DNA from: Bacteroidota bacterium
GTDB taxonomy: Bacteria; Bacteroidota; Ignavibacteria; UBA10030; UBA6906
Direction of reading: 5' to 3'
Assembly (NCBI GenBank): GCA_019637975.1
Contig: JAHBUR010000009.1
Span: forward strand, 1 to 64,000
DNA length: 64,000 bases
Position 1 is the first letter of the stretch. Every line of letters begins with the position of its first letter. A program made the translations under genes and the position numbers. Under the pieces are notes generated by a model. That model did no database searches. It was not told the origin of the DNA and saw nothing but the letters and a program-made list of their open reading frames with translations. Positions 26,089-42,254 of the stretch are shown piece by piece.

Positions 26089-26984
26089 CTGTGCAGAAAA
26101 CGTACTCCTACGCTGCATCGGTAAAGTCGGGAGTCTCCGATGAACTCATCAACACCTATCTGATACGCCCGCTGGCTGGCATCGCTGTCCGTCTCATCTA
26201 CAGTACCCCCCTAACACCAAACCATGTTACGATCGCATCGATATTCGTCGGGCTGGTTGCTGCGTATTTCTATCTCGAAGGCACGGCGTTGCACAACCTC
26301 GTCGCCGGTTTTTGCATAACGGTAAAGGATGTTCTGGATTCCGCCGACGGGCAACTGGCCCGGGCAAGACAGCAGTACAGTCGCGTCGGCCGGTTTCTCG
26401 ACTCTATCGGTGATATAATTGTAAATGCTCTTGTGTTCTGCGCTATCACTGTTGCGCTCATATACGGCTCCGGTTCCGCAGCGCTGGCCTTCCTTGGCGT
26501 ACTCGCATTCGTCGGCACAACTCTCCGGGTTTCCTACCACGTATTCTACCATACATCATTTCTTCACTTGAGCAACTCATACGAAGCAAACAGAGTTACG
26601 GAGGACATCACTTGCGAAGATGCGCAAGAAACGCCCATGACGCTTCGTCTCCAGCGTGTATTTTTGTTCCTGTACGGATGGCAGGATAGACTCATGGTAG
26701 AAATTGATCGTTGGTGTTACGGAAAAGGTGAACCCGATTCGAGATTCTTCAAGCGATGGTACAGCGACCGCATCGGATTGCGATTGTCGGGGTTGTTGGG
26801 GTTGGGAACGGAGTTGTTTCTCTTAATGCTGCTTTCTGTTACGAATCACCTGCAGGAATACCTTCTTGCCAACATCTTCGGCATGAACTGCATATGGGGC
26901 ATTTCCGTTTTGTACCGGAAGCGTTTCCTTGCACAACAAGTCAAGGATGCACAGCATCCCGATCGCCTGTCAGGTGGTCCATAA
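26085..26984 (+). CDS. CDP-alcohol phosphatidyltransferase family protein (second copy)
   Basis: A 299-residue membrane enzyme with the full CDP-alcohol transferase signature, DSADGQLARARQQYSRVGR followed by FLDSIGD (about residues 83-108). It starts with GTG overlapping the stop of the cytidylyltransferase gene. The organisation mirrors the first copy: N-terminal TPNHVTIASI, two transmembrane halves, and a polar stretch (about 155-210, NRVTEDITCEDAQE) between them. Two such enzymes around a single activating enzyme suggest either two acceptors or two sequential steps, as in making an inositol- or amino-alcohol-type lipid. The 3' end overlaps the convergent coiled-coil gene by 44 bp, so neither gene has a separate terminator there. 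Confidence 0.9.
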   Translation: MTVQKTYSYAASVKSGVSDELINTYLIRPLAGIAVRLIYSTPLTPNHVTIASIFVGLVAAYFYLEGTALHNLVAGFCITVKDVLDSADGQLARARQQYSRVGRFLDSIGDIIVNALVFCAITVALIYGSGSAALAFLGVLAFVGTTLRVSYHVFYHTSFLHLSNSYEANRVTEDITCEDAQETPMTLRLQRVFLFLYGWQDRLMVEIDRWCYGKGEPDSRFFKRWYSDRIGLRLSGLLGLGTELFLLMLLSVTNHLQEYLLANIFGMNCIWGISVLYRKRFLAQQVKDAQHPDRLSGGP

Positions 26985-29900
26985 TGGCAGCATGTTGATC
27001 TACTGTAATGCCCATTTGTTCACGCAGATGGGCGGTTGCCTCCATATGATCACGGCCGAGTTGCTTCGCGTCGAGCATTCGCCGCATGGTATCGGCGTAT
27101 GCCTCAACCCGGATGGAACGTTCCATAACAGCATGATCGTTTTCGCTAATACCAAGAGAGGAACGGATTGCAGCCAACAACGATGCTTCTTCGCCGGCAG
27201 GGTTGCCCTCGCTCCAGAGGTGTTTGAGAAAACTTCTGTACAATCCGACCGACTCCTTGCGTAACGTCGACCGACGTTCACTCAACGTCCGTTCTCTGGC
27301 TTCTTCCTCCCGCTTCCATGCCGTGCCCCGGTTTGTGCGTTGTTCAAACACGCGCCGCGCCTCTTCTTTGAGGTTCATGTCATTCAGGATATCCATCTCA
27401 TAATCCTGGGCACGCGTGTGTGAAGGATCGATAGCGTATACGGTTTCGATTTCTGCTCGCGCTTTGTCGAATTGACGATGCCGGTAGAAATCTTCAATCT
27501 TTTTGAGAATCACATCGATCTTGCTCTTGCGAATTGCACGCTTCTCCTCCTCCTCGCGCTCTTTAAGTGTAAGTTCGGCGATTTCCTTTTGAAGCGATTC
27601 GACTTTGTGAAGATGTTCCTCCCGCCAGCGGCGGGCGCCCTCTTTCCGTTTGACCTGATGTTGACGCCCGTTGTAGATCTCCGTTTCCAACTCCTTGGCT
27701 TCGGCGTCGGTTGGATTGACGAGATAGATTTTCGTCACTTCCTTCATTGCATCCTCGAACCGACCAGCGGCAAGGAACTGCCTTGCCGACTCAAAGTATG
27801 AACGGAGTTTCTTTTGTTGGGCCAATCGTCGCCCCTCCGCGATTGCCTGACGGACCGCCTCTTCGTGGTTCTTCGTCAGAATTTCCTGCTCATCCTTGAG
27901 GCGTTCGATCTCGGCCTGCCTCAACCGTTCGGATTCTTCATCCTTTCGACGCTTTTCGGCAAGAAGGCGCTGTTCCTCCTCCTCAATTCGACGTGCCTCA
28001 TGTTCTGCCTTTTGTTGCGCTTCATGCTCAATGCGCCGTCGCTCGGCTTGAAGAAGTTGTTCTTGTTCGGCCTCTACGCGCCGTTGCTCTTCCTCAATCT
28101 GTTGTTGGTATTCTTTCTCGATGCGTATTCGCTCTTCATCATCAGCCCGTTGTTTGAGTGCGCGCTCTTCTTGTTCCTTCTGTTCGGCAAGTTCAAGCTT
28201 GCGACGTTCCTCTTCAAGCCGGGCTTGCAGTTCATCTTCAATGCGCTGACGCTCGGTTTCCAGTTTCGCGGAAGCGGCACGCTCAAGACGCAGACGCTCT
28301 GCTTCAAGTTCTTCCTGTGCTTCTTCCTGAATCCGTTTCCGGGTTTCTTCTTCCAGGTACTTCTGCTTCTCTATTTCCGCCACGTGTCGTGCCTCTTCGT
28401 TGGCACGCCGTTCCTCCTCTTCGCGTTTGCGGGCTTCCTCGGCGGACTTCAGTCGCGTTTCCCGCTCGATGCGTTTACGCTCGGCCTCGAGGAGTTGCTG
28501 ATGTTCCTCGGCAAGCCGTCGTCGCTCCTCTTCAATCTGACGTTTGAATTCCTCCTCAATGCGCCGGCGCTCTTCCTCCTCTGCCCGTTTCCGGACTTCC
28601 ATTGCTTCGTTCTCCCGCCGGTGCTCCTCATCGAGTTTGCGTTGCTGCTCTTCGATTCTGGCTTGCAGTTCCTTCTCGATACGTCTCCGTTCTGCTTCCA
28701 GTCGGGCCTGTGCCTCAGCCTCAATCCGCTTGCGTTCCTCTTCGAGTTGCTGACTTGCCTGTTCGGCGATGAGCCGCCGGGCATTCTCTTCTTCTTCTTT
28801 CAGACGAAGTTCCTGCTGCCTGCGCTGCTCCTCTTCCTGGCGTTTTCGAAGTTCTTCCGCCTCGATGCGTGCACGCTTTTCTTCATCGTAGCGTCGGCGT
28901 TCTTCTTCAAGCTTGCGGGTTGCCTCCTCAAGCTTTCTGCGGATTTCCTCTTCGGCCCGTTTGTGGGCCTCTTCCAAATCACGTCGACGAAGTTCTTCCT
29001 CCCGTTTCCGTTTGGATTCAATTTCCGCTGATTGCTGTACAGAAGCTTCATCGAGTTTTCTACGCTTTTCTTCTCCTTTCAACGCCGCATCGATAATCTC
29101 GCGTTGACGGGCAAGTTCCTCTTCAACCCTCCTCCGCTGGTCTTCTGCACGTTGGCGCGCTTCTTCGGCGAGCTTTCGTTGCTCTTCTTGTTCTTTTCGA
29201 CGTACTTCTTCTGCAAGTCGGAGCAGTTCTTCCTCCTCAGCCCTGCGCCGTGATGCTTCGGTGATTTTGCGAACTTCCTCTTCTGCAAGCCGCTTTGCAT
29301 CCTCGGCTTCGCGCATTGCTTTTTCTGCAATACTTCGCTTTTCCTCTTCACCGGCTTTAATGAGGGCTTCCAACTCGGCACGCTGACGGGCGATTTCCTG
29401 CTCTGCAAGTCGTTTTGTTTCTTCCACAACACGCTGAATCTCGGCTTCAGCAGATTTACGCGTTTCTTCGGCTATGCGGCGTCGTTCTTGTTCCTCTTCA
29501 TTGAGGCGACGCTCCATTTCAGCACGTTGCCGCGCAATTTCTTGCTCGGCCTGACGTTTCGCCTCCTCGGCGGTGCGGAGAGCCTCCTCGGCAATTTTTC
29601 TTTTTTCTTCCTCACCTGCTTTGACTATTGCTTCCAAGTGGGAACGTTGTCGGGCAAGCTCCTCCTCGGCCTTCCGCCGAGCTTCCTCAGCTTTGAGGCG
29701 CTGTTCTTCTTCCCATTTGCGTTTCTGCTCCTCGGCGAGACGATCCTGCTCTACCTTCTCCGCTTTCTGGATGGCTTCGTGCGCAATGCGACGGCTTTCC
29801 TCCTCGATTGCCTTGAGTTTCTCTTCAAGTTCGGCGCGCTGGCGGAGGCTTTCCTCATTGCTCTTCTTCCGAACCTCCTCGATCTTCAATGCAGCTTCAA

Positions 29901-30348
29901 CCAACGATTTTTGACGGGCAAGTTCGGCTTCGATTTTCTGACGAGATTCGGTGGCGCGACGTTGGGATTCGTCGTCAACCGGTTCGCTTTTCTTCTGTTT
30001 ATCAGCACTTTTGCCAAGCCCGCGTTCTTCTCTGACTGCAAGATTCTCAGCAGCCGGCGTGCGTATCTCAGCAACACGAGCAGTACGCGTTTCGGGCTGG
30101 TTCGATGGAGGTGAAGTTAGTGGCGATGACGATGATGATGGTGTTCGCTTCGCATGCTGTTCTTGAAGAGCATAGTGGACGCGTTCCCGATATGCAAGTG
30201 CATACGGATTGTTCGGATCGGTATCCATGGCCTGTTGGACAAGCCGTTGCGCGCCCTCATAATCGGCAACCTTGAACAGCTTGTCAGCCATTTTCAGGTA
30301 TTCGCCGCTTCTCTTGCGCCGCTCTTGTGCTTCGTCCAATTCAGCCAT
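26941..30348 (-). CDS. Giant charged helical protein with terminal TPR-like segments
   Basis: A 1135-residue protein without signal peptide or membrane segment. Residues about 15-58 form a TPR-like helix pair (YEGAQRLVQQAMDTDPNNPYA); about 65-125 are a flexible Ser/Pro-rich linker; about 125-860 are an almost unbroken E/R/K/A/Q stretch with repeated units of the form A-E-E-E-x-A-R-Q-R, consistent with a very long coiled coil or ER/K single alpha-helix. Two more TPR-like pairs follow (FEDAMKEVTKIYLVNPTDAEA, FDKARAEIETVYAIDPSHTRA). The last ~100 residues hold a tandem motif: L-x2-L-R-x2-L-G-I-S-x2-D-H-A and L-R-E-x-M-G-I-T-x-D-Q-H-A. A near-consensus promoter drives it. It is probably a cytoplasmic scaffold or spacer; no enzyme domain is visible. 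No SD precedes the ATG. Confidence 0.85.
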   Translation of the reverse strand: MAELDEAQERRKRSGEYLKMADKLFKVADYEGAQRLVQQAMDTDPNNPYALAYRERVHYALQEQHAKRTPSSSSSPLTSPPSNQPETRTARVAEIRTPAAENLAVREERGLGKSADKQKKSEPVDDESQRRATESRQKIEAELARQKSLVEAALKIEEVRKKSNEESLRQRAELEEKLKAIEEESRRIAHEAIQKAEKVEQDRLAEEQKRKWEEEQRLKAEEARRKAEEELARQRSHLEAIVKAGEEEKRKIAEEALRTAEEAKRQAEQEIARQRAEMERRLNEEEQERRRIAEETRKSAEAEIQRVVEETKRLAEQEIARQRAELEALIKAGEEEKRSIAEKAMREAEDAKRLAEEEVRKITEASRRRAEEEELLRLAEEVRRKEQEEQRKLAEEARQRAEDQRRRVEEELARQREIIDAALKGEEKRRKLDEASVQQSAEIESKRKREEELRRRDLEEAHKRAEEEIRRKLEEATRKLEEERRRYDEEKRARIEAEELRKRQEEEQRRQQELRLKEEEENARRLIAEQASQQLEEERKRIEAEAQARLEAERRRIEKELQARIEEQQRKLDEEHRRENEAMEVRKRAEEEERRRIEEEFKRQIEEERRRLAEEHQQLLEAERKRIERETRLKSAEEARKREEEERRANEEARHVAEIEKQKYLEEETRKRIQEEAQEELEAERLRLERAASAKLETERQRIEDELQARLEEERRKLELAEQKEQEERALKQRADDEERIRIEKEYQQQIEEEQRRVEAEQEQLLQAERRRIEHEAQQKAEHEARRIEEEEQRLLAEKRRKDEESERLRQAEIERLKDEQEILTKNHEEAVRQAIAEGRRLAQQKKLRSYFESARQFLAAGRFEDAMKEVTKIYLVNPTDAEAKELETEIYNGRQHQVKRKEGARRWREEHLHKVESLQKEIAELTLKEREEEEKRAIRKSKIDVILKKIEDFYRHRQFDKARAEIETVYAIDPSHTRAQDYEMDILNDMNLKEEARRVFEQRTNRGTAWKREEEARERTLSERRSTLRKESVGLYRSFLKHLWSEGNPAGEEASLLAAIRSSLGISENDHAVMERSIRVEAYADTMRRMLDAKQLGRDHMEATAHLREQMGITVDQHAAIMDHLTGDRDAVHP

Positions 30349-30546: not shown

Positions 30547-31239
30547 TTATGTTCTGGCTCGATAGAAGGAAACGGAATGCTCCATTCTCAAGTTCTTCCT
30601 GTCCCAATACTCATACCGCTCCAGCCAAGGGTGTGAGCGGAACACATCATCATGTTCCGGGTTTGCATACGCAAGACGAATGCGAGATTTGTTTGGGCCT
30701 GTATCGGCTGCAATCTTCCGAAGAACTTGATCCAACGTGACCGCCCCGAAAGGATTGAAGAGCGTGAAGACGGTACCGTTCGAGTAGTCAAAATGCTCGG
30801 CCATGCCCCGATGTACTTCCACCGTTGATTTCCTCTCCCTCATGCGTATGACATTTCTCCGGGCGTGGCTGCACAGATCTTCTGAAAGCTCCACTCCAAT
30901 GACCTTCCGGACCTCTAATCGAGCAGCACAACAAAGGACGCGGCCCTTGCCGCTGCCGATATCAATGAAAACATCGGAAGGATCCAGCGCAAGGAAAGTG
31001 ATAACCCGCTGAATGGTTGAGTAGAGCATGGTGGCATAGTGATGGGCATCAGGATAATTTACTTCGATAATACCCCTCGTAGATATGCCGAGGCGATACT
31101 CCCAATAGAGATTGTGGAGACGCTTCCTGAATGGAGTCCGCGCTATGATCACGTTGCTATCCGGCGATGGTACATGAATCCTGTTTCTTGGCTGACTAAT
31201 ATACCCGCGGAATAGCCTTTTTGCAAACTCATCAGACAC
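30547..31239 (-). CDS. Class I SAM-dependent methyltransferase
   Basis: A 230-residue methyltransferase. Motif I is clear (DVFIDIGSGKGRVLCCAARL, about 90-108), followed by VIGVELSEDLCSHARRNVI (motif II acidic Glu) and a catalytic-loop-like FTLFNPFGAVTL (N-P-F-x, reminiscent of N/D-P-P-[YFW] in amino methyltransferases). The C-terminus YANPEHDDVF matches a broad bacterial family related to Dot1-type and rRNA methyltransferases. The first codon is GTG at 31239. It is on the same strand as the cytochrome operon but 118 bp downstream of its last gene, so a read-through relationship is possible. The substrate is unknown. Confidence 0.8.
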   Translation of the reverse strand: MSDEFAKRLFRGYISQPRNRIHVPSPDSNVIIARTPFRKRLHNLYWEYRLGISTRGIIEVNYPDAHHYATMLYSTIQRVITFLALDPSDVFIDIGSGKGRVLCCAARLEVRKVIGVELSEDLCSHARRNVIRMRERKSTVEVHRGMAEHFDYSNGTVFTLFNPFGAVTLDQVLRKIAADTGPNKSRIRLAYANPEHDDVFRSHPWLERYEYWDRKNLRMEHSVSFYRART

Positions 31240-31357: not shown

Positions 31358-32677
31358 TTATGCCGCAACCGCCTGCGCCTCAACCTCCGCCGGTCTGAGC
31401 TTGATGCCGCATTTCTTCAATAGTTCCGTCGGCAATTCCCCCCCGGCGAAAATGAACACAAAATCGTTCTTCAGATTGTGCATGATTTTGCCCGACTCCT
31501 GCACAAGAACAGTGTCTTCCCGTATTTCAAGAACTTGCGAATTGAACATTGTGTGGAGTGTGCCGGAATCAAGGTACTGTCTCACCTTTTGTTCATTCTT
31601 TTCTTTCAGACGCACGAAATCTTCTTTGCGATAGCTGATAGTCACAACATTCCCCGTCTGGCTTGCAAGCCCGATTGCAGCTTCGACGGCGCTATCACCG
31701 CCGCCGACGACGAGAATATGTTTGTGCTTGTATGATTCTGCCTCAATCAATCTGTACATCACCTTGGAGAGATTCTCTCCTGTCACGCCCAACTTGCGGG
31801 GGCTTCCACGCCTCCCCAGAGCAAGCATAACGTTTGCCCCGGTGAATTCGGCCGTCTGCGTCTTCACGATAAAGCGATCGTTTATGTTGTGAATCACCTC
31901 GACCTTTTGCCCTGTGACGACATTCAAGTGAAATCTCCCGACGACCTCCTTCCAGATTCTCAACAATTCTTCTTTTTTGATTTCCGAGACCTTCAGCTTT
32001 CCGTACAATGGTAACTCCACAGGACTCGTGAGCACGAGTTTTTGACGCGGATAATGCAACAATGCTCCGCCGATTTCGTCTTGTTCGAGCAGAACATACC
32101 GCAAGTTTAACGCTTGTGCCGAGAGGGCGGCAGAGAGACCCGCCGGTCCCGCACCGACAATAACAATATCCAGCCCATCCAGATGTTTTGACCGGCCGTT
32201 TGAGGCAACGTGTTGCACAGCCTTTTTCCCGTGAGCAATTGCGTTCTTGATCAAACCCATGCCGCTCAACTCGCCGATGATATACAGGCCGCGGACATTC
32301 GTTTCGAAGTTGTGATCATACTGGGGAAGTTCCATGCCTTGGCGCGGCGTTCCGAAACCGAGCGTGATGGCGCCAACGGGACACACATCAGCACACAAAC
32401 CATGACCCACGCATTTTGTTCCGTTGATGATTGCAGGTCTGCCTTGCACGATACCCAACACGTGTTCAGGGCATGCACGCACGCAATTGGCGCAGCCAAT
32501 GCAGTTCGTGAGATCGAAATGGGGATGCATCGTGACGGGAGGCAGTATTCCCATCCGCTGGTTCTTCTCAAACTTCTCAACCGCTTCCCGCTTGTGGCGC
32601 GCAACTCTTCTCCAATAGGGAACAGCAATCGCCCCGAACAAAACGACAAACACCAGTAGTGTATAGGCCGTCTCCAT
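31358..32677 (-). CDS. Membrane-anchored 2x[4Fe-4S]/FAD/NAD(P) oxidoreductase
   Basis: A 439-residue redox enzyme. Residues 1-20 form a single membrane anchor; residues about 55-105 are a bacterial ferredoxin domain with two clusters (CIGCANCVRACP and CVGHGLCADVCP); the rest is a thioredoxin-reductase-fold flavoprotein with an FAD site (DIVIVGAGPAGLSAAL, about 168-183) and an NAD(P) site (HILVVGGGDSAVEAAI, about 310-325). The CxxC active site of thioredoxin reductase is absent, so electrons should pass between NAD(P)H, FAD and the Fe-S clusters. It is the last gene of the cytochrome operon, seven bases after the barrel gene. It probably links cytoplasmic NAD(P)H or ferredoxin to the membrane cytochrome b. 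Direction of electron flow is not evident from sequence. Confidence 0.88.
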   Translation of the reverse strand: METAYTLLVFVVLFGAIAVPYWRRVARHKREAVEKFEKNQRMGILPPVTMHPHFDLTNCIGCANCVRACPEHVLGIVQGRPAIINGTKCVGHGLCADVCPVGAITLGFGTPRQGMELPQYDHNFETNVRGLYIIGELSGMGLIKNAIAHGKKAVQHVASNGRSKHLDGLDIVIVGAGPAGLSAALSAQALNLRYVLLEQDEIGGALLHYPRQKLVLTSPVELPLYGKLKVSEIKKEELLRIWKEVVGRFHLNVVTGQKVEVIHNINDRFIVKTQTAEFTGANVMLALGRRGSPRKLGVTGENLSKVMYRLIEAESYKHKHILVVGGGDSAVEAAIGLASQTGNVVTISYRKEDFVRLKEKNEQKVRQYLDSGTLHTMFNSQVLEIREDTVLVQESGKIMHNLKNDFVFIFAGGELPTELLKKCGIKLRPAEVEAQAVAA

Positions 32678-32684
32678 TCTTCGC

Positions 32685-34277
32685 CTACAATCGTACGCTC
32701 AGTTCGGCAAATACAGAATTCGACACTGTACCATACCCGCTCAGCCTGTCGTACGATGCGACAAAGTTGAGTTCTCTCGTAAGAAACACTATCACGTCAA
32801 CGCCTAGTGTGGAGCTTGAGCTTCTCACATCGGTTTGCTTCACCGTGTAACCGTTGCGATGTGCGCGAAGAATGATATCGAGAAGTTGCGCGAAAGTTTT
32901 CTGGATCGAAACACCGTATCCGGTTCCACGTGTAAACTGATTCGCATTCACATTCATAGTGGTACGGATGCCGATTCCACTTGAAAGAACATCAGAGATG
33001 TTGATTGCCGAGTAGTTCGAGTAGTCCCTGCCGAACGATGCGTGTTCTGAAGACCGGGGCGTATACGTATTGAACAGCGATATACCACCCGGCAACAGGA
33101 TATTCACGCTGATACTCACTCCAGAGCGTACGTCGTTCCTCAGAAGTGAATCCGGAATATGCCGTACGGTTTCGAAGCTGTAATACGGTCTGGATGCGTC
33201 GGCCCCGATGCCGACACTCACCGGACGGATGATACGATAGTTGAGATGAACGTTCGCACCGGTCAGCTTGGGCGAGAGGATGAAGTTGCTGCCGGACTTT
33301 CTTCTCAAGTCAATTTCCGTATTGGCATAGAGAAAGAGGTTCGACGCAAGCGAAGCATTCATCAGCACACTGGTTACCTCCCGGTCAAGCGCCGACCGAA
33401 AGTACGTACGTGCATACGCAGTCGAAACAGACAACGCAATGCGATCGGGTGTTCTGTACTGTGCGAATACCGCAACCTTCCTATAGTCTGTGGAAATGCT
33501 GCGCAGATTGAATGCGGGTTGGTATCCGACTGTCACTCCCGCAGTCAGGTTGCCAAACGCTTTCGACACGAGCGCCCCGTCGATATAGCCGATGGAGGGC
33601 GAAAAGACAGGTATAATCCGCCCGAAAGAAAGAACATTCTCACCGTCATCGTAACTTACCGAGAGACCGTAAACACGGGTTTGGTTGATCGCTCCTCCGG
33701 AGAACGGGCTTTTGTTTCCGACAGAAAGGGTTCTGACATTTGCGTATACGTCGAACTTCAGAGGGATGTCGCGCAGCGTGCCGCGCAAGTTAACGACAAC
33801 TCCGGGCTGTGAACTGTTGAACAGTGTATTGTCGTAGAGAGATGCGAAGTACTGGGCGCTAAGCCTACCTCGCACGCTCAGAATGTTTTCCTGGACAGAA
33901 ACAGGGGGCAACGCACGCGGATTGGGAAGCGGAACCCTCGAAGGTTGATCTGCCGTTCGGATAGTGTCGGTTGCCGGCCGGATTGTTTCAACAATTTCTA
34001 TGGTTCCGAACACCTCATCACCGATGCCGGTAGAACGCGTGCCGTGCAAAACGCGGCAGGCCGAGGACTTCGAACTCACAGCAAACACTTTCAACGCTGT
34101 CGTATCACTGCCCGAAACAACAAAAAGAAGAGTAGAATCCTGAACCCCCGACTCTCTCCCCAGCGACGTGTACACTGTTCCGCTTGCCACGTACGTCACC
34201 TTACCACGTATGTGCTTCACTTCACCTCTTGCGCTCAGTGCAAGCAGTATGCACACCCACACATATCTTCTCCTCAT
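32685..34277 (-). CDS. Outer-membrane beta-barrel of the cytochrome operon
   Basis: A 530-residue exported protein. The start MRRRYVWVC at 34277 overlaps the stop of the 37-heme gene by one base (TAATG) and opens a signal peptide. Residues about 20-90 form a small beta domain (HIRGKVTYVASGTVYTSLG, then G-D-E-V-F-G) resembling SH3/FlgT-C-like periplasmic modules; a Pro-rich linker follows; and residues about 130-530 show regular alternating strands with a terminal barrel strand ending SVFAELSVRL. That length suits 18-22 strands. In porin-cytochrome conduits a barrel of this kind sheathes a multiheme cytochrome through the outer membrane, and this position in the operon suggests the same here (inference). 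It carries no heme motif. Confidence 0.75.
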   Translation of the reverse strand: MRRRYVWVCILLALSARGEVKHIRGKVTYVASGTVYTSLGRESGVQDSTLLFVVSGSDTTALKVFAVSSKSSACRVLHGTRSTGIGDEVFGTIEIVETIRPATDTIRTADQPSRVPLPNPRALPPVSVQENILSVRGRLSAQYFASLYDNTLFNSSQPGVVVNLRGTLRDIPLKFDVYANVRTLSVGNKSPFSGGAINQTRVYGLSVSYDDGENVLSFGRIIPVFSPSIGYIDGALVSKAFGNLTAGVTVGYQPAFNLRSISTDYRKVAVFAQYRTPDRIALSVSTAYARTYFRSALDREVTSVLMNASLASNLFLYANTEIDLRRKSGSNFILSPKLTGANVHLNYRIIRPVSVGIGADASRPYYSFETVRHIPDSLLRNDVRSGVSISVNILLPGGISLFNTYTPRSSEHASFGRDYSNYSAINISDVLSSGIGIRTTMNVNANQFTRGTGYGVSIQKTFAQLLDIILRAHRNGYTVKQTDVRSSSSTLGVDVIVFLTRELNFVASYDRLSGYGTVSNSVFAELSVRL

Positions 34278-37057
34278 TACACATTCCTGTGGCAACTGTA
34301 ACATGCCGGACTATTGTACTGGTAGCCGGGAACACCTTGGTGTTCATCATCCATTTCCGATTGTCTGTGTTCGTGGCAACTGATGCACGTGAAGTTCTGA
34401 TATTGGCCGATCGACGGGTGGCACTGCGAGCAACTCGTCCACTTGTTTCGATGCTTGCCGGAGTAAATCCTGAAGAATTGCTGATCATGGTTGAACGTTG
34501 AAGGAAGCCACGCCGACTGTGTATGGCACGGCGTGCAATCGTGACCAAATTGCAGCGTGACGTGATTCGGGTTCGTCGGGATAGCGTACTGCGTTGCGTG
34601 GCATTGATAGCAGTTCGTGTACGTGAGTTGGTAGTTTCCGTTCACATGACACGAAATGCAGGCAGTCGCGGTATGTGCGCCTGTCAAAGGAAAACTCGTT
34701 GATGAATGATTGAATGTCGCTGGCTGCCACGCTGACTGCGTATGGCACGTCAGACACTCATGACTGAACTGCCCTTGCTGATGATTCGGATTTGTCGTTG
34801 CATTGAAATCCCCGGAGTGACAATCCCAGCATGTGTTCGGAAGTCCCTGATATTGGTTGTTGATGTGACACTGATTGCACGACACTGCCTGGTGCGCGCC
34901 AACAAGCGGAAACGGCGTACTTGCATGACTGAATGTCGACGGCATCCACGCAGTTGTTGTATGGCAGGGCACGCAGTCGTGACTGAAATTACCAAGAACG
35001 TGGTTCGGACTTTGCGGCTGCGCATACTGCGTTGTATGACACGGATAGCAATTTGTGTACACAAGCTGATAGTTGCCGTTGATGTGGCACTGCTGGCATT
35101 GTGCCGTCAGATGCCGGCCTGTGAGCGGAAACTTTGTAGTTGAATGATTGAATGATGCGGGTTGCCATGCAGATTGCGTGTGGCATTGCAAACAATCGTG
35201 ACTGAATTGTCCCTGCTGATGGTTCGGATTTGTTGTATTGTTGAACGTCGTTGCATGACAATCCCAGCATGTACCAGGAAGACCCTGATATTGGTTGTTG
35301 ATGTGACATTGATTGCACGACACGGACTGATGGGCACCGACGAGCGGGAACGGCGTAGTCGAATGACTGAAAGTTGACGGCAGCCATGTTGCTGTTGTAT
35401 GGCATGGCGCACAATCCTGATTGAAATTTCCGAGAACGTGGTTCGGGTTCTGCGGAAGGGCGTACTCGGAAGTGTGGCACGGATAGCAGTTTGTGTACAC
35501 AAGCTGGTAGTTGCCGTTGATATGGCATTGTGCACATTGTGCGGAAAGGTGCCTGCCTGTCAACGGGAAGTTTGTGGTATTATGGTCGAACGATGCGCCA
35601 TCCCAACCGTTTGTTGAGTGGCATTGTGTACAATCATGGCTGAAATTCCGCTGCACATGGTTCGGATCTGTCGCTCCAAGATAATTGTGAGAATGGCAAT
35701 CCCAGCATGTTCCGGGCAAGTTCTGATATACACTGTTCACATGGCATTGATTGCACTGCGTGGCAATGTGACGGCCTGTGAGCGGAAAACCTGTCGCTCC
35801 ATGATTAAACGATGAGGGAACCCATGCCGACGTGGTATGACACGGCGTACAATCGAGGGCGAAGCTCGGTGTTGCATGCCGCGGATTTGTCGGAAGATTA
35901 TAATTTGCCTGATGGCACTCGTAACAATTTGTATAGGTAAGCTGGTAGTTATTGTTGATGTGACATGCCTGGCATTGCGTACCGGCATGCCGCCCGGTCA
36001 ACGGAAATTGTGTCGCGTTATGGTCGAACTGCGCCGGACTCCATGCGATTGAAGTATGACACAGTTGACAGTCCGTCGGAAAACTGCCTGCAACATGGTT
36101 CGGGTTCATTGCGGAATTGAACTGCGTGCGATGGCATGAAACACAATCTGTAGGCTTTCCCGCAAACACATTGTCGGCGTGGCAATCCCGGCACTGCTGA
36201 TTGCGATGGGCACCAACAAGCGGAAACCGTGTCTGATCGTGGTTGTACGCGACTCCGGACCATCGCGAAGTGGTATGGCACGTTTGACATGCAGTCGAAA
36301 AGCGAGCCGCCGCATGATTCGGATTTGCCGTCGAAGTATACTCAGGCTGGTGACAAGACACACATTCCGTTGGTGTTGATTTGAAGACCTGGTTCTTGTG
36401 ACAGGTAAAGCACGATGCCGCAACATGTGCCCCCGTGAGAGGAAATCGCGTCAGTTCGTGTTGGAATCCCGTTCCCCACCTGAACGCCGTAACGTCGTGG
36501 CACTGCATGCAATCGGTGGAAAATCCTGACGTAACATGATTCGGAGATCGTGCAGCCGAAAAATCCTCCTTGTGACACCCAAAGCAATCAATCGGGGTCC
36601 CCGCAAACTGCTTCTGAGCGGCATTCGTGTGGCATGTCTGGCAGGGTAATGTCGAGTGTTTGCCGAGGAGTGGAAATCGGGTTGATTGATGTCTCTGCAC
36701 CATGTCGGCAATTTTCCAAGACTGCGTTGTATGACATCGCAAGCAGTTGTTTCCCATCTCACTTTTGTGAACATCGGTGTGACATGACAGGCAGTCCGAA
36801 GACTTCTTGGGAAATTTCAGGCCTTCATGACACGATACACACTGCAGCGACGTGTGTTGCCCGGTCAATGCAAAACCTGTTGCTTCGTGGTTGAATATAC
36901 CACCGTCCTTTATTTTCCACGTTTCCGTTGTGTGACATGTCCTGCATTCGAAACGGATTTTGCCGTGAGGCGATTCCTGTGCTGCCCCGTTTTCGGCTAC
37001 GGAAAAAACCGATATAAAAATGCTCAGAAGACAAAGGAACAGTCTCAGCTTCTTCAT
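34277..37057 (-). CDS. 37-heme c-type cytochrome built of tri-heme repeats
   Basis: A 926-residue exported cytochrome with 37 CXXCH motifs by my count, one heme per 25 residues. The start MKKLRLFLC at 37057 gives a standard signal peptide (cleavage near GAAQ-E) and leaves 50 bp after the upstream gene. Residues 38-182 hold six motifs in irregular order. From residue 183 a 73-74-residue unit recurs about ten times, each with three CXXCH and three other histidines in F-x-H, G-[RA]-H and N-P-N-H, enough to ligate every heme on both sides. The spacing within a unit is 32, 16 and 25 residues. There is no other domain, sorting signal or lipobox. It probably serves as a long electron wire in the periplasm or outside the cell. 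Confidence 0.95.
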   Translation of the reverse strand: MKKLRLFLCLLSIFISVFSVAENGAAQESPHGKIRFECRTCHTTETWKIKDGGIFNHEATGFALTGQHTSLQCVSCHEGLKFPKKSSDCLSCHTDVHKSEMGNNCLRCHTTQSWKIADMVQRHQSTRFPLLGKHSTLPCQTCHTNAAQKQFAGTPIDCFGCHKEDFSAARSPNHVTSGFSTDCMQCHDVTAFRWGTGFQHELTRFPLTGAHVAASCFTCHKNQVFKSTPTECVSCHQPEYTSTANPNHAAARFSTACQTCHTTSRWSGVAYNHDQTRFPLVGAHRNQQCRDCHADNVFAGKPTDCVSCHRTQFNSAMNPNHVAGSFPTDCQLCHTSIAWSPAQFDHNATQFPLTGRHAGTQCQACHINNNYQLTYTNCYECHQANYNLPTNPRHATPSFALDCTPCHTTSAWVPSSFNHGATGFPLTGRHIATQCNQCHVNSVYQNLPGTCWDCHSHNYLGATDPNHVQRNFSHDCTQCHSTNGWDGASFDHNTTNFPLTGRHLSAQCAQCHINGNYQLVYTNCYPCHTSEYALPQNPNHVLGNFNQDCAPCHTTATWLPSTFSHSTTPFPLVGAHQSVSCNQCHINNQYQGLPGTCWDCHATTFNNTTNPNHQQGQFSHDCLQCHTQSAWQPASFNHSTTKFPLTGRHLTAQCQQCHINGNYQLVYTNCYPCHTTQYAQPQSPNHVLGNFSHDCVPCHTTTAWMPSTFSHASTPFPLVGAHQAVSCNQCHINNQYQGLPNTCWDCHSGDFNATTNPNHQQGQFSHECLTCHTQSAWQPATFNHSSTSFPLTGAHTATACISCHVNGNYQLTYTNCYQCHATQYAIPTNPNHVTLQFGHDCTPCHTQSAWLPSTFNHDQQFFRIYSGKHRNKWTSCSQCHPSIGQYQNFTCISCHEHRQSEMDDEHQGVPGYQYNSPACYSCHRNV
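34373..36511 (-). repeat. Tandem ~219-bp coding repeats (tri-heme units)
   Basis: About 9.7 in-frame units of 219-222 bp encode residues 183-895 of the 37-heme cytochrome. Each unit supplies three CXXCH and three distal-ligand His. Key positions within a unit are CxxCH, W at +4, F-x-H at about +16, F-P-L-[TV]-G-x-H, CxxCH, Y-x-x-x-Y or similar, CxxCH and N-P-N-H. Confidence 0.9.
34757..35632 (-). repeat. Two adjacent near-identical 438-bp blocks
   Basis: Units 5-6 (residues 476-621) and 7-8 (622-767) form two 146-residue blocks that match at almost every position, with a third, more diverged copy beginning at unit 9. The nucleotide sequence is also closely similar (compare 35041-35100 with 35479-35540). 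This is a higher-order duplication on top of the 219-bp unit. Confidence 0.8.
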
Positions 37058-37107
37058 TCCTGATTGATTAGCTGTGGCATTGATTTCGTTTTGGTTCACG
37101 GTTGCAG

Positions 37108-38754
37108 TCATTGCCTCATACTCCCTTGCGTATGACATGATTCGCATTTCGTGGACAGCGGCTTGTAGCGAACAAATCTGCCGATGCTACTCTGTTCTTC
37201 CTGATGACACTGACGGCAATCGACGCGTGAGTGTCCGCCCGTCAAAGCAAACGAACTGTGTGTATTGTGGTCGAATACCAACGACTTCCATCCTGATGCT
37301 TCATGGCAGCTTGCGCAGGTTGTTTCACCGTTCTTTGCAAACTGTCCCATGTGGACTTCCTTGTGGCACGATTCGCATTTTGAAGGCGTATTCTTGAATT
37401 GAGCAATTTCTGCGTTTCCGATCCTGACTGGTTTGTGACAGCTTGCGCATTTCGTCTGAGTATGCTTGCCGACCAGGGCGAAGCGTGTTTTCGAGTGATC
37501 GAATTTATTGGGAAACCAGTCTTCCGTTGAATGACACGCGGCGCAATTCTGCCCTGCCATTTCAACGGCAAACTGCCCCTTGTGTACATCGTTGTGGCAT
37601 CCGTCGCATTGAATATTCGGAACCCGAAAAGTCTTTCTCCCGTCATTACCGACCGCGTGACATTTCTCGCAAGGTGTCGCCACGTGGGCGCCTGTCAGTG
37701 GAAAGCGTGCAGTGTTGTGAGCAGCAATAGTGTATGTTGCCGGCCGGAATCCGAATGGAGTATGGCACGATTCGCATTTGCTCTCGAACCTCGCCGAAAA
37801 TTCCCCCTTGTGATAGTCGGTATGACAATCACGACACGCATTGTGTGCCAACTTCAGCCGCTGACCGGGAACCGGAAATGTTGCCGATTTGTGGCATTTA
37901 TCGCATTGGACGGACGCATGTTTTCCTACAAGTCGGAAAGGCGTCAAGTCATGGTTGAACTTGTTGCTTGCCCGCGCACTCCCCCATCCCTCATCTGTAT
38001 GACAGGAGTTGCAAGCCTGTTTTCCGACAAAATCGATACTGTGGGGCGATCGATGGCAGGGGGCACAATCAGGAAAAGACTTCGTCGAGAAAAGAAGAGC
38101 GGTTTCTCTCTCTGCCCGTTCAAAGTCAGCGTGGCATCCGATACACGCTACCGTGGTATGTTTGCCCCGTAACGGGAATTCCGTCTTCGCATGATTGAAA
38201 AATGCTGCCGGCCTCCAAGACGTTGTCGTATGGCAGGTTTGACATTCCTTGCCTACAGTGGCATTATGCCTGTCAGCATGGCAACCGGCGCAGGCTTGAG
38301 AAAGCCCGAGATAAGTCTCCCGTCCGGTTTGCTTCACAAGTGCAAGTATGCCCGGGTCTTTGATGTTTTTTGTGGAATGGCAATCCTCGCACCGGATTGT
38401 TGCATGTTTCCCCGTCCGGTTGAAGCCTGTTTGCGCATGATCGAACGTATTCTTGTCGAACAAAATTGTCTGCGCATCGCGGCCGAGATGTTCCTTGTGG
38501 CACGCAACGCATCTCTGTGCGGCAACCCGGAAGTGATACCCGCGCTTCGCGTCGATGACAGACTTGATTTCCTCGTGGCACGCAAGACATTTCTGCCCGC
38601 TGATTTCCTTTCCGGTTTCATGGCACGTAAGGCAGTTCTGCATTCCTTCAAGATCAAGATGCACACGCGAGAGCTGCCCCGGCGAAAACTGAGCATAAGC
38701 GATTCCTCTCAACACAAGGAGAACAAGCAAAGGGACTATGCGTTTAGTCGCCAT
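37108..38754 (-). CDS. 20-heme c-type cytochrome
   Basis: A 548-residue exported cytochrome with 20 CXXCH motifs by my count. Signal peptide at residues 1-21 (VPLLVLLVLRGIAYA). The middle part uses a related tri-heme grammar: CQTCHTTTSW then F-x-H, G-K-H and CIGCH, and so on, with W/F-x-P and F-x-H-x3-T-x-F-x-L-x-G-x-H recurring five to six times. It therefore appears homologous to, but much more diverged than, the neighbouring 37-heme protein. ATG 38754 lies 3 bp after the cytochrome b stop (a GTG at 38757 is also possible). Gene order places it next to the membrane cytochrome b, and a periplasmic shuttle accepting electrons from it is the likely role. Confidence 0.95.
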   Translation of the reverse strand: MATKRIVPLLVLLVLRGIAYAQFSPGQLSRVHLDLEGMQNCLTCHETGKEISGQKCLACHEEIKSVIDAKRGYHFRVAAQRCVACHKEHLGRDAQTILFDKNTFDHAQTGFNRTGKHATIRCEDCHSTKNIKDPGILALVKQTGRETYLGLSQACAGCHADRHNATVGKECQTCHTTTSWRPAAFFNHAKTEFPLRGKHTTVACIGCHADFERAERETALLFSTKSFPDCAPCHRSPHSIDFVGKQACNSCHTDEGWGSARASNKFNHDLTPFRLVGKHASVQCDKCHKSATFPVPGQRLKLAHNACRDCHTDYHKGEFSARFESKCESCHTPFGFRPATYTIAAHNTARFPLTGAHVATPCEKCHAVGNDGRKTFRVPNIQCDGCHNDVHKGQFAVEMAGQNCAACHSTEDWFPNKFDHSKTRFALVGKHTQTKCASCHKPVRIGNAEIAQFKNTPSKCESCHKEVHMGQFAKNGETTCASCHEASGWKSLVFDHNTHSSFALTGGHSRVDCRQCHQEEQSSIGRFVRYKPLSTKCESCHTQGSMRQ

Positions 38755-38757
38755 CAC

Positions 38758-39618
38758 TTAAAAGATCCACCGGTATCCGAGCAACACGGTTACCGCAACG
38801 TGTGCTGCCAGCGTAATGAACATGATGACGGTAAACGGCAAGTGTATGGCATGCCAGTAAAAGAACAATTTCTCAACCTGGGCAAGCAGTACTGTTTTTT
38901 GGACGAGCGTTGTACGGGCGGAGGCAAGTTTGTAGAGTGAACGGGTCTGTTCATGCGTCATCCTGCTTTTAGCAATCATCTCACGGACGGCATGTTTTAC
39001 CTGGCGTCTTGTATTCTGCAAACGAATAAGAAGCCCGAAGGTCTCAAGCAATTTGTTCGGTTTCGGAATTGCCGAGAAGCTCTCATCTATCTTCTCTACC
39101 AATTGAAGTCCGAGAGGGGAATGCGCTATTTCGTCTCGAAGTCTGTCCAGTTCGTTGATGATTTCCTGCTGGGTCAATTCACTTCCCTTGAGATTGCGCG
39201 GAATTTGCACATACAAAAACCTGCCGATGATGCCGCTGGCCGCAACCGAAACCATGCACCACAAACTGATTGCCGCAATGCCGCCCGCTTTGAACGTGGT
39301 ATGAAACACTACAAGAATGGGACCCAGCAAACAAAGAAAGATGTGAACTTCAAGCCAGCGCGATAGCTTGCCAAGATTCCAGAGTTTCTTCACGCGTTTG
39401 CGCGTCGAATACATCGTAACCCCGATGGTAATCATCGATGCCCCGATAATCCCGAGCCCGTGGCTGTATTTGCCGGACGGTTTCATGGTGTCGTATTCGG
39501 GAAGAAAGGGTCGTTGGGGAATGGGGGTGGTGTAGTATCCGAATCCGTTGATACCGACAACGATGATTGCGGTTCCGGCTACAAAGAACAGAAACAACAG
39601 AAAGACTTTATGTGCCAA
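38758..39618 (-). CDS. Di-heme cytochrome b-type membrane protein
   Basis: A 286-residue integral membrane protein with hydrophobic segments at about 4-24, 53-70, 91-108, 112-137 and 253-283. Two histidine pairs with 13 residues between them, H92/H106 in the third segment and H259/H273 in the last, reproduce the HX13H spacing by which two b-hemes are bound between helices in bc1-type cytochrome b. A soluble helical stretch (about 141-250) separates the two halves. The start codon is TTG at 39618 with AAAGGAG five bases upstream. It is first in the cytochrome operon and should exchange electrons between quinol and the periplasmic 20-heme cytochrome. No known family name could be assigned with certainty. 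Confidence 0.82.
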   Translation of the reverse strand: MAHKVFLLFLFFVAGTAIIVVGINGFGYYTTPIPQRPFLPEYDTMKPSGKYSHGLGIIGASMITIGVTMYSTRKRVKKLWNLGKLSRWLEVHIFLCLLGPILVVFHTTFKAGGIAAISLWCMVSVAASGIIGRFLYVQIPRNLKGSELTQQEIINELDRLRDEIAHSPLGLQLVEKIDESFSAIPKPNKLLETFGLLIRLQNTRRQVKHAVREMIAKSRMTHEQTRSLYKLASARTTLVQKTVLLAQVEKLFFYWHAIHLPFTVIMFITLAAHVAVTVLLGYRWIF

Positions 39619-39755: not shown

Positions 39756-42254
39756 ATGAGTCGTAGTTCAATAGATAATACCGGATTGAACCGAAAACCG
39801 CCCAAAAAAGGCCGACATCTTGCCGTTTTGGACAGGTTTCTTTACACAACCATAACTTGCCTTCTTGCGAAACATGCCTTATCATCAATTCACAATCTCA
39901 CTACTTCATATTCACAAAGAACGGCTGCGAGTCAACGACCCGCCCTATTATTCATGCTCGAGCAACGCGAACAAGGCAAGAAAATCTCAGAAGAAGACTC
40001 CCTGGCCAGAAAACCCGATGGGAAGGGAAATATAGATCAACCAGATTCAAAGGGTCAGGCCAAACCGCGCAGAGCACGAACATCACGGATCCGCCGCCGC
40101 AAGCCCGTGCGCGCAGCCGATCAGGGATTGCCCGGACAAACCACGCTTGACCCGTTGTTGTACATCAACCGCGAGTTGAGTTGGCTTGAGTTCAATCAAC
40201 GTGTCTTTGAAGAAGCGCAGGACAAGCGCCATCCGCTGCTTGAGCGCGCCAAGTTTCTCGCAATTACCAGCTCCAATCTCGATGAATTCTTCATGATCCG
40301 TGTCGCCGCAATCAAGGAACAGATTCTTGCAGATTTTGCGGAGCTTTCTCCCGACGGCAAGGTTCCGGTTCAGCAACTCAAAGCAATTCACGAGCGTTCG
40401 TCGCGCATGTTCAAAGAAAAATCCGGCCTTTTTTGGAACGAACTGCAGCCGCAATTTGCGGAAAACGGCATTCATCTGTTGAAGATGAATGACATCACTA
40501 CCACAGAGAAAGCCCTGCTTTCGGAGTACTATGCCCGCGAAATCTTCCCTGTACTCACGCCGCTTGCGTTCGATCCGGGACATCCGTTCCCGTACATTTC
40601 CAACCTGAGCCTGAACCTCGCAGTTTCCGTCAGCAACCCGAAGGGCGAGGAACGCTTCGCACGCGTGAAGGTACCTGATGTTCTTCCGCGCCTTGTGGAA
40701 ATTCCGGGCGGCGCTGCACCCCCGCACCGTTTTGTATGGCTTGAAGACCTGATACGCGAGAACCTCGGCATGCTTTTTCCGGGTATGACCGTAAATGAAT
40801 CGCACGCGTTTCACGTCACACGCAACGCCGACATTGAAATCCAGGAAGATGAGGCTGAGGATTTGATTCACTCGATCGAGGAATCGATCAAGATGCGACG
40901 ATTCGGATCGGTTGTGCGACTGAAAGTGGAAGATACGATGCCCCAGCGGATAATCGACATTCTTGCCGAGAATCTGGAAATCACGCAAGATGATGTGTAC
41001 CACCTCAAGCCGCCTCTCGGTTTCGGCCATCTTATGCAACTGCTGAAGCTTCCCCGTCCCGATCTCAAAGATGCGCCTCACCATCCGGCCCTGTTGTTGA
41101 ATGAAGAAGAGGGAGACGACATCTTCGCCCTCATCAGGCGGGGCGATGTTGTGCTTCATCATCCGTACGATTCGTTCGCCCCCGTCGTACAGTTCATCCG
41201 TTCTGCCGCAACCGACCCGAATGTTCTTGCCATCAAACAGACGTTGTACAGAATCGGGAAGGAATCGCCGCTTATTCCGCTGTTGATTCTTGCTGCCGAA
41301 AGCGGAAAGCAGGTAGCTGTGCTCGTGGAACTGAAGGCCCGCTTCGACGAAGAAAACAACATCGGCTGGGCGAAAAAACTCGAACGGGCGGGTATTCATG
41401 TCGTGTACGGCTTGGTCGGATTGAAGACACACTCGAAAATCGCGCTGGTGATCCGGAAAGAACCGGACGGGCTTCGCCGGTACGTTCATCTCGGCACGGG
41501 CAACTACAATCCCGACACGGCACGCATCTACACCGATATCAGTTATCTGACTTGCAAAGAGGACTTTGCCATTGATGCCTCCGAAGTGTTCAATTTTCTT
41601 ACCGGGTTCTCCCATAAGGAGGAATTCAAAAAGCTGATCGTTGCTCCCGTGAACTTGCGAAGTCGAATAACAGAACTGATTCAGCGGGAGATAGGGCATG
41701 CGCGAAACGGCAAGCCCGCACAAGTAGTGATGAAAATGAATGCTCTGACCGACACGAGAATGATCGAAACGCTGTACGAGGCCTCGAAGGCAGGAGTACT
41801 GATTGATATTATTGTGCGGGGAATTTGCTGTCTGCGTCCCGGCGTGAAAGGTGTCAGCGAAAATATCCGTGTACGCAGCATAGTGGGAAGATTCCTTGAA
41901 CATAGCCGCGTCTTCTATTTCTCCAACAATGGACATCCCGAACTCTACTGCAGCAGCGCCGACCTCATGGGACGCAACCTCGACCGGCGCGTCGAACTCA
42001 TGTTCCCGATCGAGGATCGGGTCTGGGCCGAATTCATCAAACGCGAAACGCTTGATGACGCTTTGTGCGATACGGCGGGAACCCGTGTATTGGATGCGAA
42101 CGGCAACTATACGCGTGTGTTGCCAACGAACGGCGAACCGGCGTTTGACGTACAATCACATCTCCTCTTTTCCCGGTCCAAACAATTGCCGCGGAAGGCA
42201 ATGCCCCGGGAATCGCCGCTGGGCGAGCGAACCGAGCCGGCACTCGACGTCTAA
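39756..42254 (+). CDS. ppk1: Polyphosphate kinase 1
   Basis: This enzyme reversibly polymerises ATP gamma-phosphate into polyphosphate. The conserved core begins at YINRELSWLEFNQRVFEEA (about residue 136), continues through NLDEFFMIRVA, the catalytic-histidine region VYGLVGLKTHSKIAL, YVHLGTGNYNPDTARIYTD and DRRVELMFPIE, all of which match PPK1. The first ~135 residues are not family-like: residues 1-66 are a poorly conserved-looking stretch and about 85-125 a very basic K/R-rich tail. ATG 39756 has AAGGA four bases upstream, which supports the long form. ATG 39954 would give a 766-residue protein closer to the usual 690-740, but has no SD. The N-terminus is thus uncertain; the core is not. 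Confidence 0.92.
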   Translation: MSRSSIDNTGLNRKPPKKGRHLAVLDRFLYTTITCLLAKHALSSIHNLTTSYSQRTAASQRPALLFMLEQREQGKKISEEDSLARKPDGKGNIDQPDSKGQAKPRRARTSRIRRRKPVRAADQGLPGQTTLDPLLYINRELSWLEFNQRVFEEAQDKRHPLLERAKFLAITSSNLDEFFMIRVAAIKEQILADFAELSPDGKVPVQQLKAIHERSSRMFKEKSGLFWNELQPQFAENGIHLLKMNDITTTEKALLSEYYAREIFPVLTPLAFDPGHPFPYISNLSLNLAVSVSNPKGEERFARVKVPDVLPRLVEIPGGAAPPHRFVWLEDLIRENLGMLFPGMTVNESHAFHVTRNADIEIQEDEAEDLIHSIEESIKMRRFGSVVRLKVEDTMPQRIIDILAENLEITQDDVYHLKPPLGFGHLMQLLKLPRPDLKDAPHHPALLLNEEEGDDIFALIRRGDVVLHHPYDSFAPVVQFIRSAATDPNVLAIKQTLYRIGKESPLIPLLILAAESGKQVAVLVELKARFDEENNIGWAKKLERAGIHVVYGLVGLKTHSKIALVIRKEPDGLRRYVHLGTGNYNPDTARIYTDISYLTCKEDFAIDASEVFNFLTGFSHKEEFKKLIVAPVNLRSRITELIQREIGHARNGKPAQVVMKMNALTDTRMIETLYEASKAGVLIDIIVRGICCLRPGVKGVSENIRVRSIVGRFLEHSRVFYFSNNGHPELYCSSADLMGRNLDRRVELMFPIEDRVWAEFIKRETLDDALCDTAGTRVLDANGNYTRVLPTNGEPAFDVQSHLLFSRSKQLPRKAMPRESPLGERTEPALDV

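Follow-up and report, generated by a model that had tools for sequence, protein, structure and literature searches.

Here, we describe a five-gene operon that lies on the minus strand at positions 31358-39618 of a 64,000-nt stretch (the window) of contig JAHBUR010000009.1 from a Bacteroidota bacterium (GCA_019637975.1). In transcription order, its five open frames encode an inner-membrane cytochrome b (CYB), two multiheme c-type cytochromes (MHC20 and MHC37), an outer-membrane beta-barrel protein (BAR), and a membrane-anchored flavoprotein (FLAV), all with the coordinates and strand given in a preliminary description of this DNA (Table 1). The intergenic gaps listed there (3, 50, -1, and 7 bp) are likewise correct with ATG starts at 38754, 37057, and 34277; the start of MHC37 is uncertain by 30 codons. 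Moreover, comparison with a same-genus relative gave dN/dS values of 0.06-0.15 for all five genes, which indicates purifying selection.

Table 1. Genes of the operon and features within them, in window coordinates (TM, transmembrane).
Feature	Position	Strand	Remarks
CYB, inner-membrane di-heme cytochrome b	38758..39618	-	286 residues, five TM helices, TTG start; open reading frame
CYB helix 3, WX3HX13H with H92-x13-H106	39301..39345	-	His invariant in 71 sequences
CYB helix 4, SGIIG (SGXXG motif)	39223..39237	-	S128, G129, and G132 invariant in 71 sequences
CYB helix 5, W255-x3-H259-x13-H273	38800..38856	-	H259 and H273 invariant, W255 in at least 90% of 71 sequences
MHC20, 20-heme c-type cytochrome, presumed periplasmic	37108..38754	-	20 CXXCH, signal peptide
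MHC37, 37-heme c-type cytochrome, presumed outer	34277..37057	-	37 CXXCH, signal peptide; frame open to 37147
MHC37 three-heme repeats, 73 residues each	34523..36511	-	CXXCH spacing 32/16/25
BAR, outer-membrane beta-barrel protein	32685..34277	-	AlphaFold2; frame open to 34304
BAR small N-terminal beta domain, presumed periplasmic	33996..34220	-	model strands, residues 29-103
BAR 22-strand barrel, no plug domain	32691..33881	-	strand list of AlphaFold2 model
FLAV, membrane-anchored Fe-S/FAD/NAD(P) enzyme	31358..32677	-	439 residues; Pfam Fer4 and Pyr_redox domains
FLAV N-terminal TM helix	32603..32659	-	hydropathy
FLAV Fe-S motifs Cx2Cx2Cx3CP and Cx2Hx2Cx3CP	32378..32503	-	alignment of relatives
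FLAV FAD/NAD(P) domain, thioredoxin-reductase-like, without conserved CxxC	31394..32170	-	Pfam

The AlphaFold2 model of CYB (pLDDT 88.7) comprises five transmembrane helices, and the two HX13H pairs reported at first sight are indeed present as H92/H106 and H259/H273, with WX3 ahead of each. CYB itself gave no Pfam match, including none to the ferric reductase family, and its relatives matched DUF4405 or Ni_hydr_CYTB weakly. A fold search with the CYB model returned helical-bundle matches only, the best of these having a VIA Z of 10.8 and a rmsd of 7.1 over 148 residues; for cytochrome b561, the VIA Z was 7.0 over 142 residues. The histidine pattern of CYB is also kept by distant, small plasmid-borne homologues in Proteobacteria and Cytophagales. 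By annotation (with Pfam domains checked for one case), these inner-membrane proteins adjoin genes for 2Fe-2S, ferredoxin, or FAD/NAD(P) oxidoreductases and for small cytochromes. On the plasmids of several Proteobacteria and Spirosoma (L065-L070), these form a three-gene module of a 2Fe-2S/FAD/NAD oxidoreductase, a small HX13H membrane protein, and a small c-type cytochrome, and genes for copper resistance or a NiFe hydrogenase lie alongside. Our search of a viral collection yielded a single CYB-like fragment in a phage context, this being a 168-residue open reading frame (L155:7920-8426; 94 bits against the CYB profile) that resembles part of a cytochrome b, on a viral contig with phage-like genes.

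The heme counts first given for the two c-type cytochromes proved exact, and they stand far above those of residue-shuffled MHC20 and MHC37, for which the mean number of CXXCH motifs was 0.24 and 0.51 and the maximum 3 and 4, respectively. Both proteins are sparing in polypeptide, at 27.5 (MHC20) and 25.8 (MHC37) residues per heme, and have 22 and 44 histidines, respectively, outside CXXCH. Among relatives, the inner cytochrome is nearly constant, with 20 hemes in 63 of 77 sequences and 23 hemes in 9, whereas the outer cytochrome carries anywhere from 10 to 46 hemes, a variation that misassembled repeats in metagenome-assembled genomes (MAGs) could be causing in part. The outer heme count follows 3k+1 in 51 of 66 cases (binomial p 3e-13, shared descent not corrected for). 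The three-heme repeats of MHC37 are flanked by N-terminal CXXCH spacings of 35, 16, 16, 34, 19, and 25 and C-terminal spacings of 35, 15, and 28, and these terminal spacings are also found in relatives. With its 31 hemes, the outer cytochrome of the same-genus relative is missing a single block, of exactly 146 residues, that MHC37 has; on the DNA, direct repeats with a 438-nt period (at 34679, 35117, and 35555) correspond to a six-heme unit of MHC37. A constant inner cytochrome paired with an outer one of variable length would fit a periplasmic gap of set width and an outer end that is unconstrained. A sequence search of the PDB found one short match for MHC20 and none for MHC37.

That the fourth gene encodes an outer-membrane barrel, as had been proposed, is supported by its AlphaFold2 model (mean pLDDT 86.9), in which a signal peptide, a small N-terminal beta domain, and a disordered linker precede a predicted 22-strand barrel. 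The nearest solved neighbours are the barrels of TonB-dependent transporters (VIA Z about 20), and MtrB was not among the fold matches listed, a listing that does not exclude a likeness to MtrB.

Conserved synteny, the absence of which was the main ground given in the preliminary description for abandoning its reading, was found in Ignavibacteriota and in other Bacteroidota. Of 60 near relatives, 31 carry a relative of CYB (in a few cases a distant paralogue), as do 40 of 395 genomes (about 10%) sampled evenly across the phylum. A scan of a species-level genome collection gave 465 CYB matches, and the best 80 of these are, by record title, all from Ignavibacteriota or other Bacteroidota except for one 'uncultured bacterium'; Ca. 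Chrysopegis kryptomonas is among them, as are Bacteroidales, Marinilabiliales, and Saprospiraceae MAGs. Gene neighbourhoods were labelled for 89 distinct CYB loci of Ignavibacteriota and other Bacteroidota, and among the 55 that have CYB, both the inner and the outer cytochrome, and the barrel, 53 also have FLAV. Two gene orders dominate, namely that of the window (CYB-MHC20-MHCn-BAR-FLAV) and CYB-FLAV-MHC20-MHCn-BAR, and because the set recurs in 53 of 55 loci and in two orders, its co-location by chance is not a reasonable reading. All five genes are also found on plasmid pEMTOL02 of Emticicia oligotrophica DSM 17448, directly downstream of a CcsA/ResB cytochrome c assembly gene. When plasmids were searched, relatives of MHC37 appeared in Emticicia only, and the plasmid search for BAR relatives returned no match. 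In some clusters (L042, L044, and L055), CYB is directly followed by the gene for a TPR protein of ~200 residues with weak matches to CcmH-like TPR, which may serve cytochrome c assembly.

Among described systems, we found the closest likeness in PCC3, a four-gene cluster proposed from Fe(II)-oxidising Proteobacteria in which a porin and an inner-membrane protein go with two cytochromes, one extracellular and one periplasmic, that have medians of 34 and 21 hemes, respectively (He et al. 2017, PMC5566968). The inner-membrane protein has ~300 residues and five transmembrane helices, of which the third and fifth bear WX3HX13H and the fourth SGXXG (PMC5566968), a signature that CYB shares along with its length and helix number. 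The window moreover has the barrel protein and the two large cytochromes with few residues per heme, so that the earlier claim of no known system with such a set was too strong, as PCC3 (PMC5566968) holds four of the five parts; what stands well supported, by synteny across a large clade, is the five-part electron conduit itself. In contrast to the window, PCC3 was described without a flavoprotein. The inner cytochrome also differs, having 20 or 23 hemes here and 21, 24, or 27 in the PCC3 of Gallionellaceae, and the outer heme count here is mostly 3k+1. In our judgement, the operon is thus probably a variant PCC3-like conduit, the two being likened by gene set, motifs, and descriptions rather than by sequence homology. 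Apparently new with respect to PCC3 are the conserved FLAV, the constant-inner and modular-outer heme numbers, and the spread outside Proteobacteria; our literature search found no report linking Ignavibacteria with PCC3.

Other known conduits resemble the operon less closely. The inner-membrane protein of PCC4 (PMC5566968) agrees with CYB in helix and histidine pattern, and PCC4 likewise has Fe-S redox partners, but its periplasmic cytochromes are three small ones (of 4, 5, and 10 hemes), with no extracellular one, against the 20 and 37 hemes of the window. MtrCAB, MtoAB, and PioAB would work alike in combining a barrel with periplasmic and outer multiheme cytochromes, though the cytochromes of the window are larger and come with their own cytochrome b and flavoprotein. 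Here, MtrB_PioB (PF11854) matched neither BAR nor anything else in the genome, and against the decaheme MtrA model (DmsE-family, TIGR03508), the two cytochromes of the window scored 46 and 27 bits versus a cut-off of 192. For Ignavibacteria, OmbB- and MtrB-like clusters and cytochromes of 33 and 40 hemes have been reported (PMC7399161). Together with the OmbB-OmaB-OmcB type of Geobacter, these share with the operon the general logic, and the Ignavibacteria reports also the phylum and large cytochromes, but no cytochrome b and flavoprotein are described in those clusters, which we compared by description.

From the positive stretch RRVARHKR after its transmembrane helix, the main domain of FLAV is predicted to be cytoplasmic. 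Of the two [4Fe-4S] motifs initially ascribed to it, one is canonical, and the other is a Cys3His motif (Cx2Hx2Cx3CP) and not a four-Cys one, a correction that we make because H92 of FLAV does not vary among 16 relatives. In the first motif, Ser takes the place of the second Cys in two distant FLAV members. The nearest relatives in the PDB are YpdA/Bdr, thioredoxin reductases, and a ferredoxin-NADP reductase. As its simplest role, FLAV would pass electrons from NAD(P)H through FAD and the Fe-S centres to b heme, and its conservation points to NAD(P)H, and not quinol alone, as the cytoplasmic partner. Alternatively, CYB could be linked to quinones, as He et al. suggested for the PCC3 inner-membrane protein (PMC5566968), with FLAV in a side role, such as a cytochrome c maturation reductase or in thiol balance. 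This we think rather unlikely, for although FLAV comes closest to the YpdA family of putative bacillithiol disulfide reductases, it scores 175.5 bits against NCBIfam TIGR04018 (YpdA), below the family cut-off of 339.9, and has no conserved CxxC. Furthermore, its two Fe-S motifs and membrane anchor would be superfluous in a thiol reductase, and the distant plasmid homologues of CYB likewise adjoin flavin or Fe-S reductases, even if the CcsA/ResB gene next to the Emticicia cluster and the weak CcmH-like TPR genes inside some clusters would suit a maturation role.

The membrane domain of NADPH oxidases is fed by a flavin. CYB would work like this domain and that of ferric reductases in having two HX13H pairs on two helices and a flavoprotein that feeds them, except that the flavin and Fe-S parts of the window belong to a separate protein, one of the thioredoxin reductase family. 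We favour such a flavin-fed mode for CYB because FLAV is conserved and because flavin enzymes adjoin the distant homologues. In the route that we infer, as regards protein locations, contacts, order of transfer, and substrate as well as NAD(P)H over quinol as the main partner, FLAV, on the cytoplasmic side of the inner membrane, would link NAD(P)H with its own Fe-S centres by electron exchange, and these centres would reduce the two b hemes of CYB, which would carry the electrons over the inner membrane. MHC20, with its near-fixed size, would span the periplasm, the plug-less barrel of BAR would let the chain pass through the outer membrane, and the modular MHC37 would reach an outside acceptor, or a donor if the flow is reversed. 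Such a flow would be reversible in principle, with the outward direction the more likely. For a conduit run mainly inward, with electrons from a donor outside the cell (Fe(II), partner cells, or a cathode) going to CYB and then to quinones, or to NAD(P)+ via FLAV, the prospects seem poor to us: the transfer from Fe(II) to NAD(P)+ is energetically uphill, and many of the hosts are MAGs named from groundwater, fen, or sediment, or belong to anaerobic-clade Bacteroidales. What speaks for the inward direction is that Fe(II) oxidisers were the source of the PCC3 proposal (PMC5566968), that the host genome has three heme-copper-oxidase-family genes, and that Emticicia (warm spring water) has the set.

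Taken together, we regard the operon as probably a PCC3-type trans-envelope electron conduit with its own NAD(P)H module. Several observations weigh against this view. For instance, PCC3 is downregulated with Fe(II) in S. lithotrophicus ES-1 (PMC8788666), where its loci are Slit_0867-0870 and Slit_1446-1449. The coupling of FLAV with CYB is read solely from gene neighbourhood and domain content, the predicted CYB model matched no solved cytochrome in the fold searches, and BAR has no kinship to MtrB detectable with Pfam, its fold matching generic barrels. Moreover, the outer cytochrome bears no lipid anchor or other surface signal, lipobox-like motifs being found in just 3 of 65 sequences. This last point would suit an arrangement without any outer-membrane conduit, in which both cytochromes are periplasmic and act as an electron store or relay beside a barrel that is an unrelated transporter, as would the small plasmid modules of inner-membrane protein and cytochrome that adjoin copper-resistance or hydrogenase genes. 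We nevertheless hold it to be quite improbable, given that almost every complete locus keeps the barrel beside the outer cytochrome and that a several-fold variation in the length of the outer, but not the inner, cytochrome would then be hard to explain. Going beyond the PCC3-type conduit, we suggest, only tentatively, that Ignavibacteriota and other Bacteroidota may have a distinct conduit class, one that would lead from NAD(P)H to the outside without quinones and whose outer reach would be tuned by three-heme modules on a fixed base.

Promoter- and terminator-like sites showed no excess over the chance level. On the 3' side of the operon are a methyltransferase-like gene (window 30547-31239) and one for a Glu/Arg-rich protein of 1135 residues (26941-30348), probably a coiled coil and with a weak TPR match, both of which are also kept in the same-genus relative (L031). 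A polyphosphate kinase gene (39756-42254) is divergent from the operon, with a short intergenic region between them. Elsewhere in the host genome, a second HX13H inner-membrane protein is found at L062 (G000:C22:18000-34000), where PCC4-like redox parts are tied to signalling genes, in the order of a cNMP-binding/Fer4_11 protein, the HX13H protein, and an FHA/flavin/2Fe-2S protein, followed by phosphatase- and Ser/Thr kinase-like genes. A third large cytochrome locus, L151 (G000:C4:138500-158400), encodes proteins with 19, 13, 12, 11, and 8 hemes, a likely pair of Rieske protein and cytochrome b, and a 442-residue protein that could be an outer-membrane barrel, and is thus a candidate electron-transfer system. 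Because of L062 and L151, the operon is one of several multiheme systems in the host cell.

Since it was proposed in 2017, PCC3 has stayed a paper prediction, and with FLAV and CYB the electron partner of its inner-membrane protein becomes testable. As about one in ten of the evenly drawn phylum genomes carries CYB, the conduit may be widespread in the phylum, and so may extracellular electron transfer that is invisible to searches with Mtr and Omb markers. Finally, the outer heme counts, which rise in steps of three, offer a natural length series in which wire length can be set against electron transfer.

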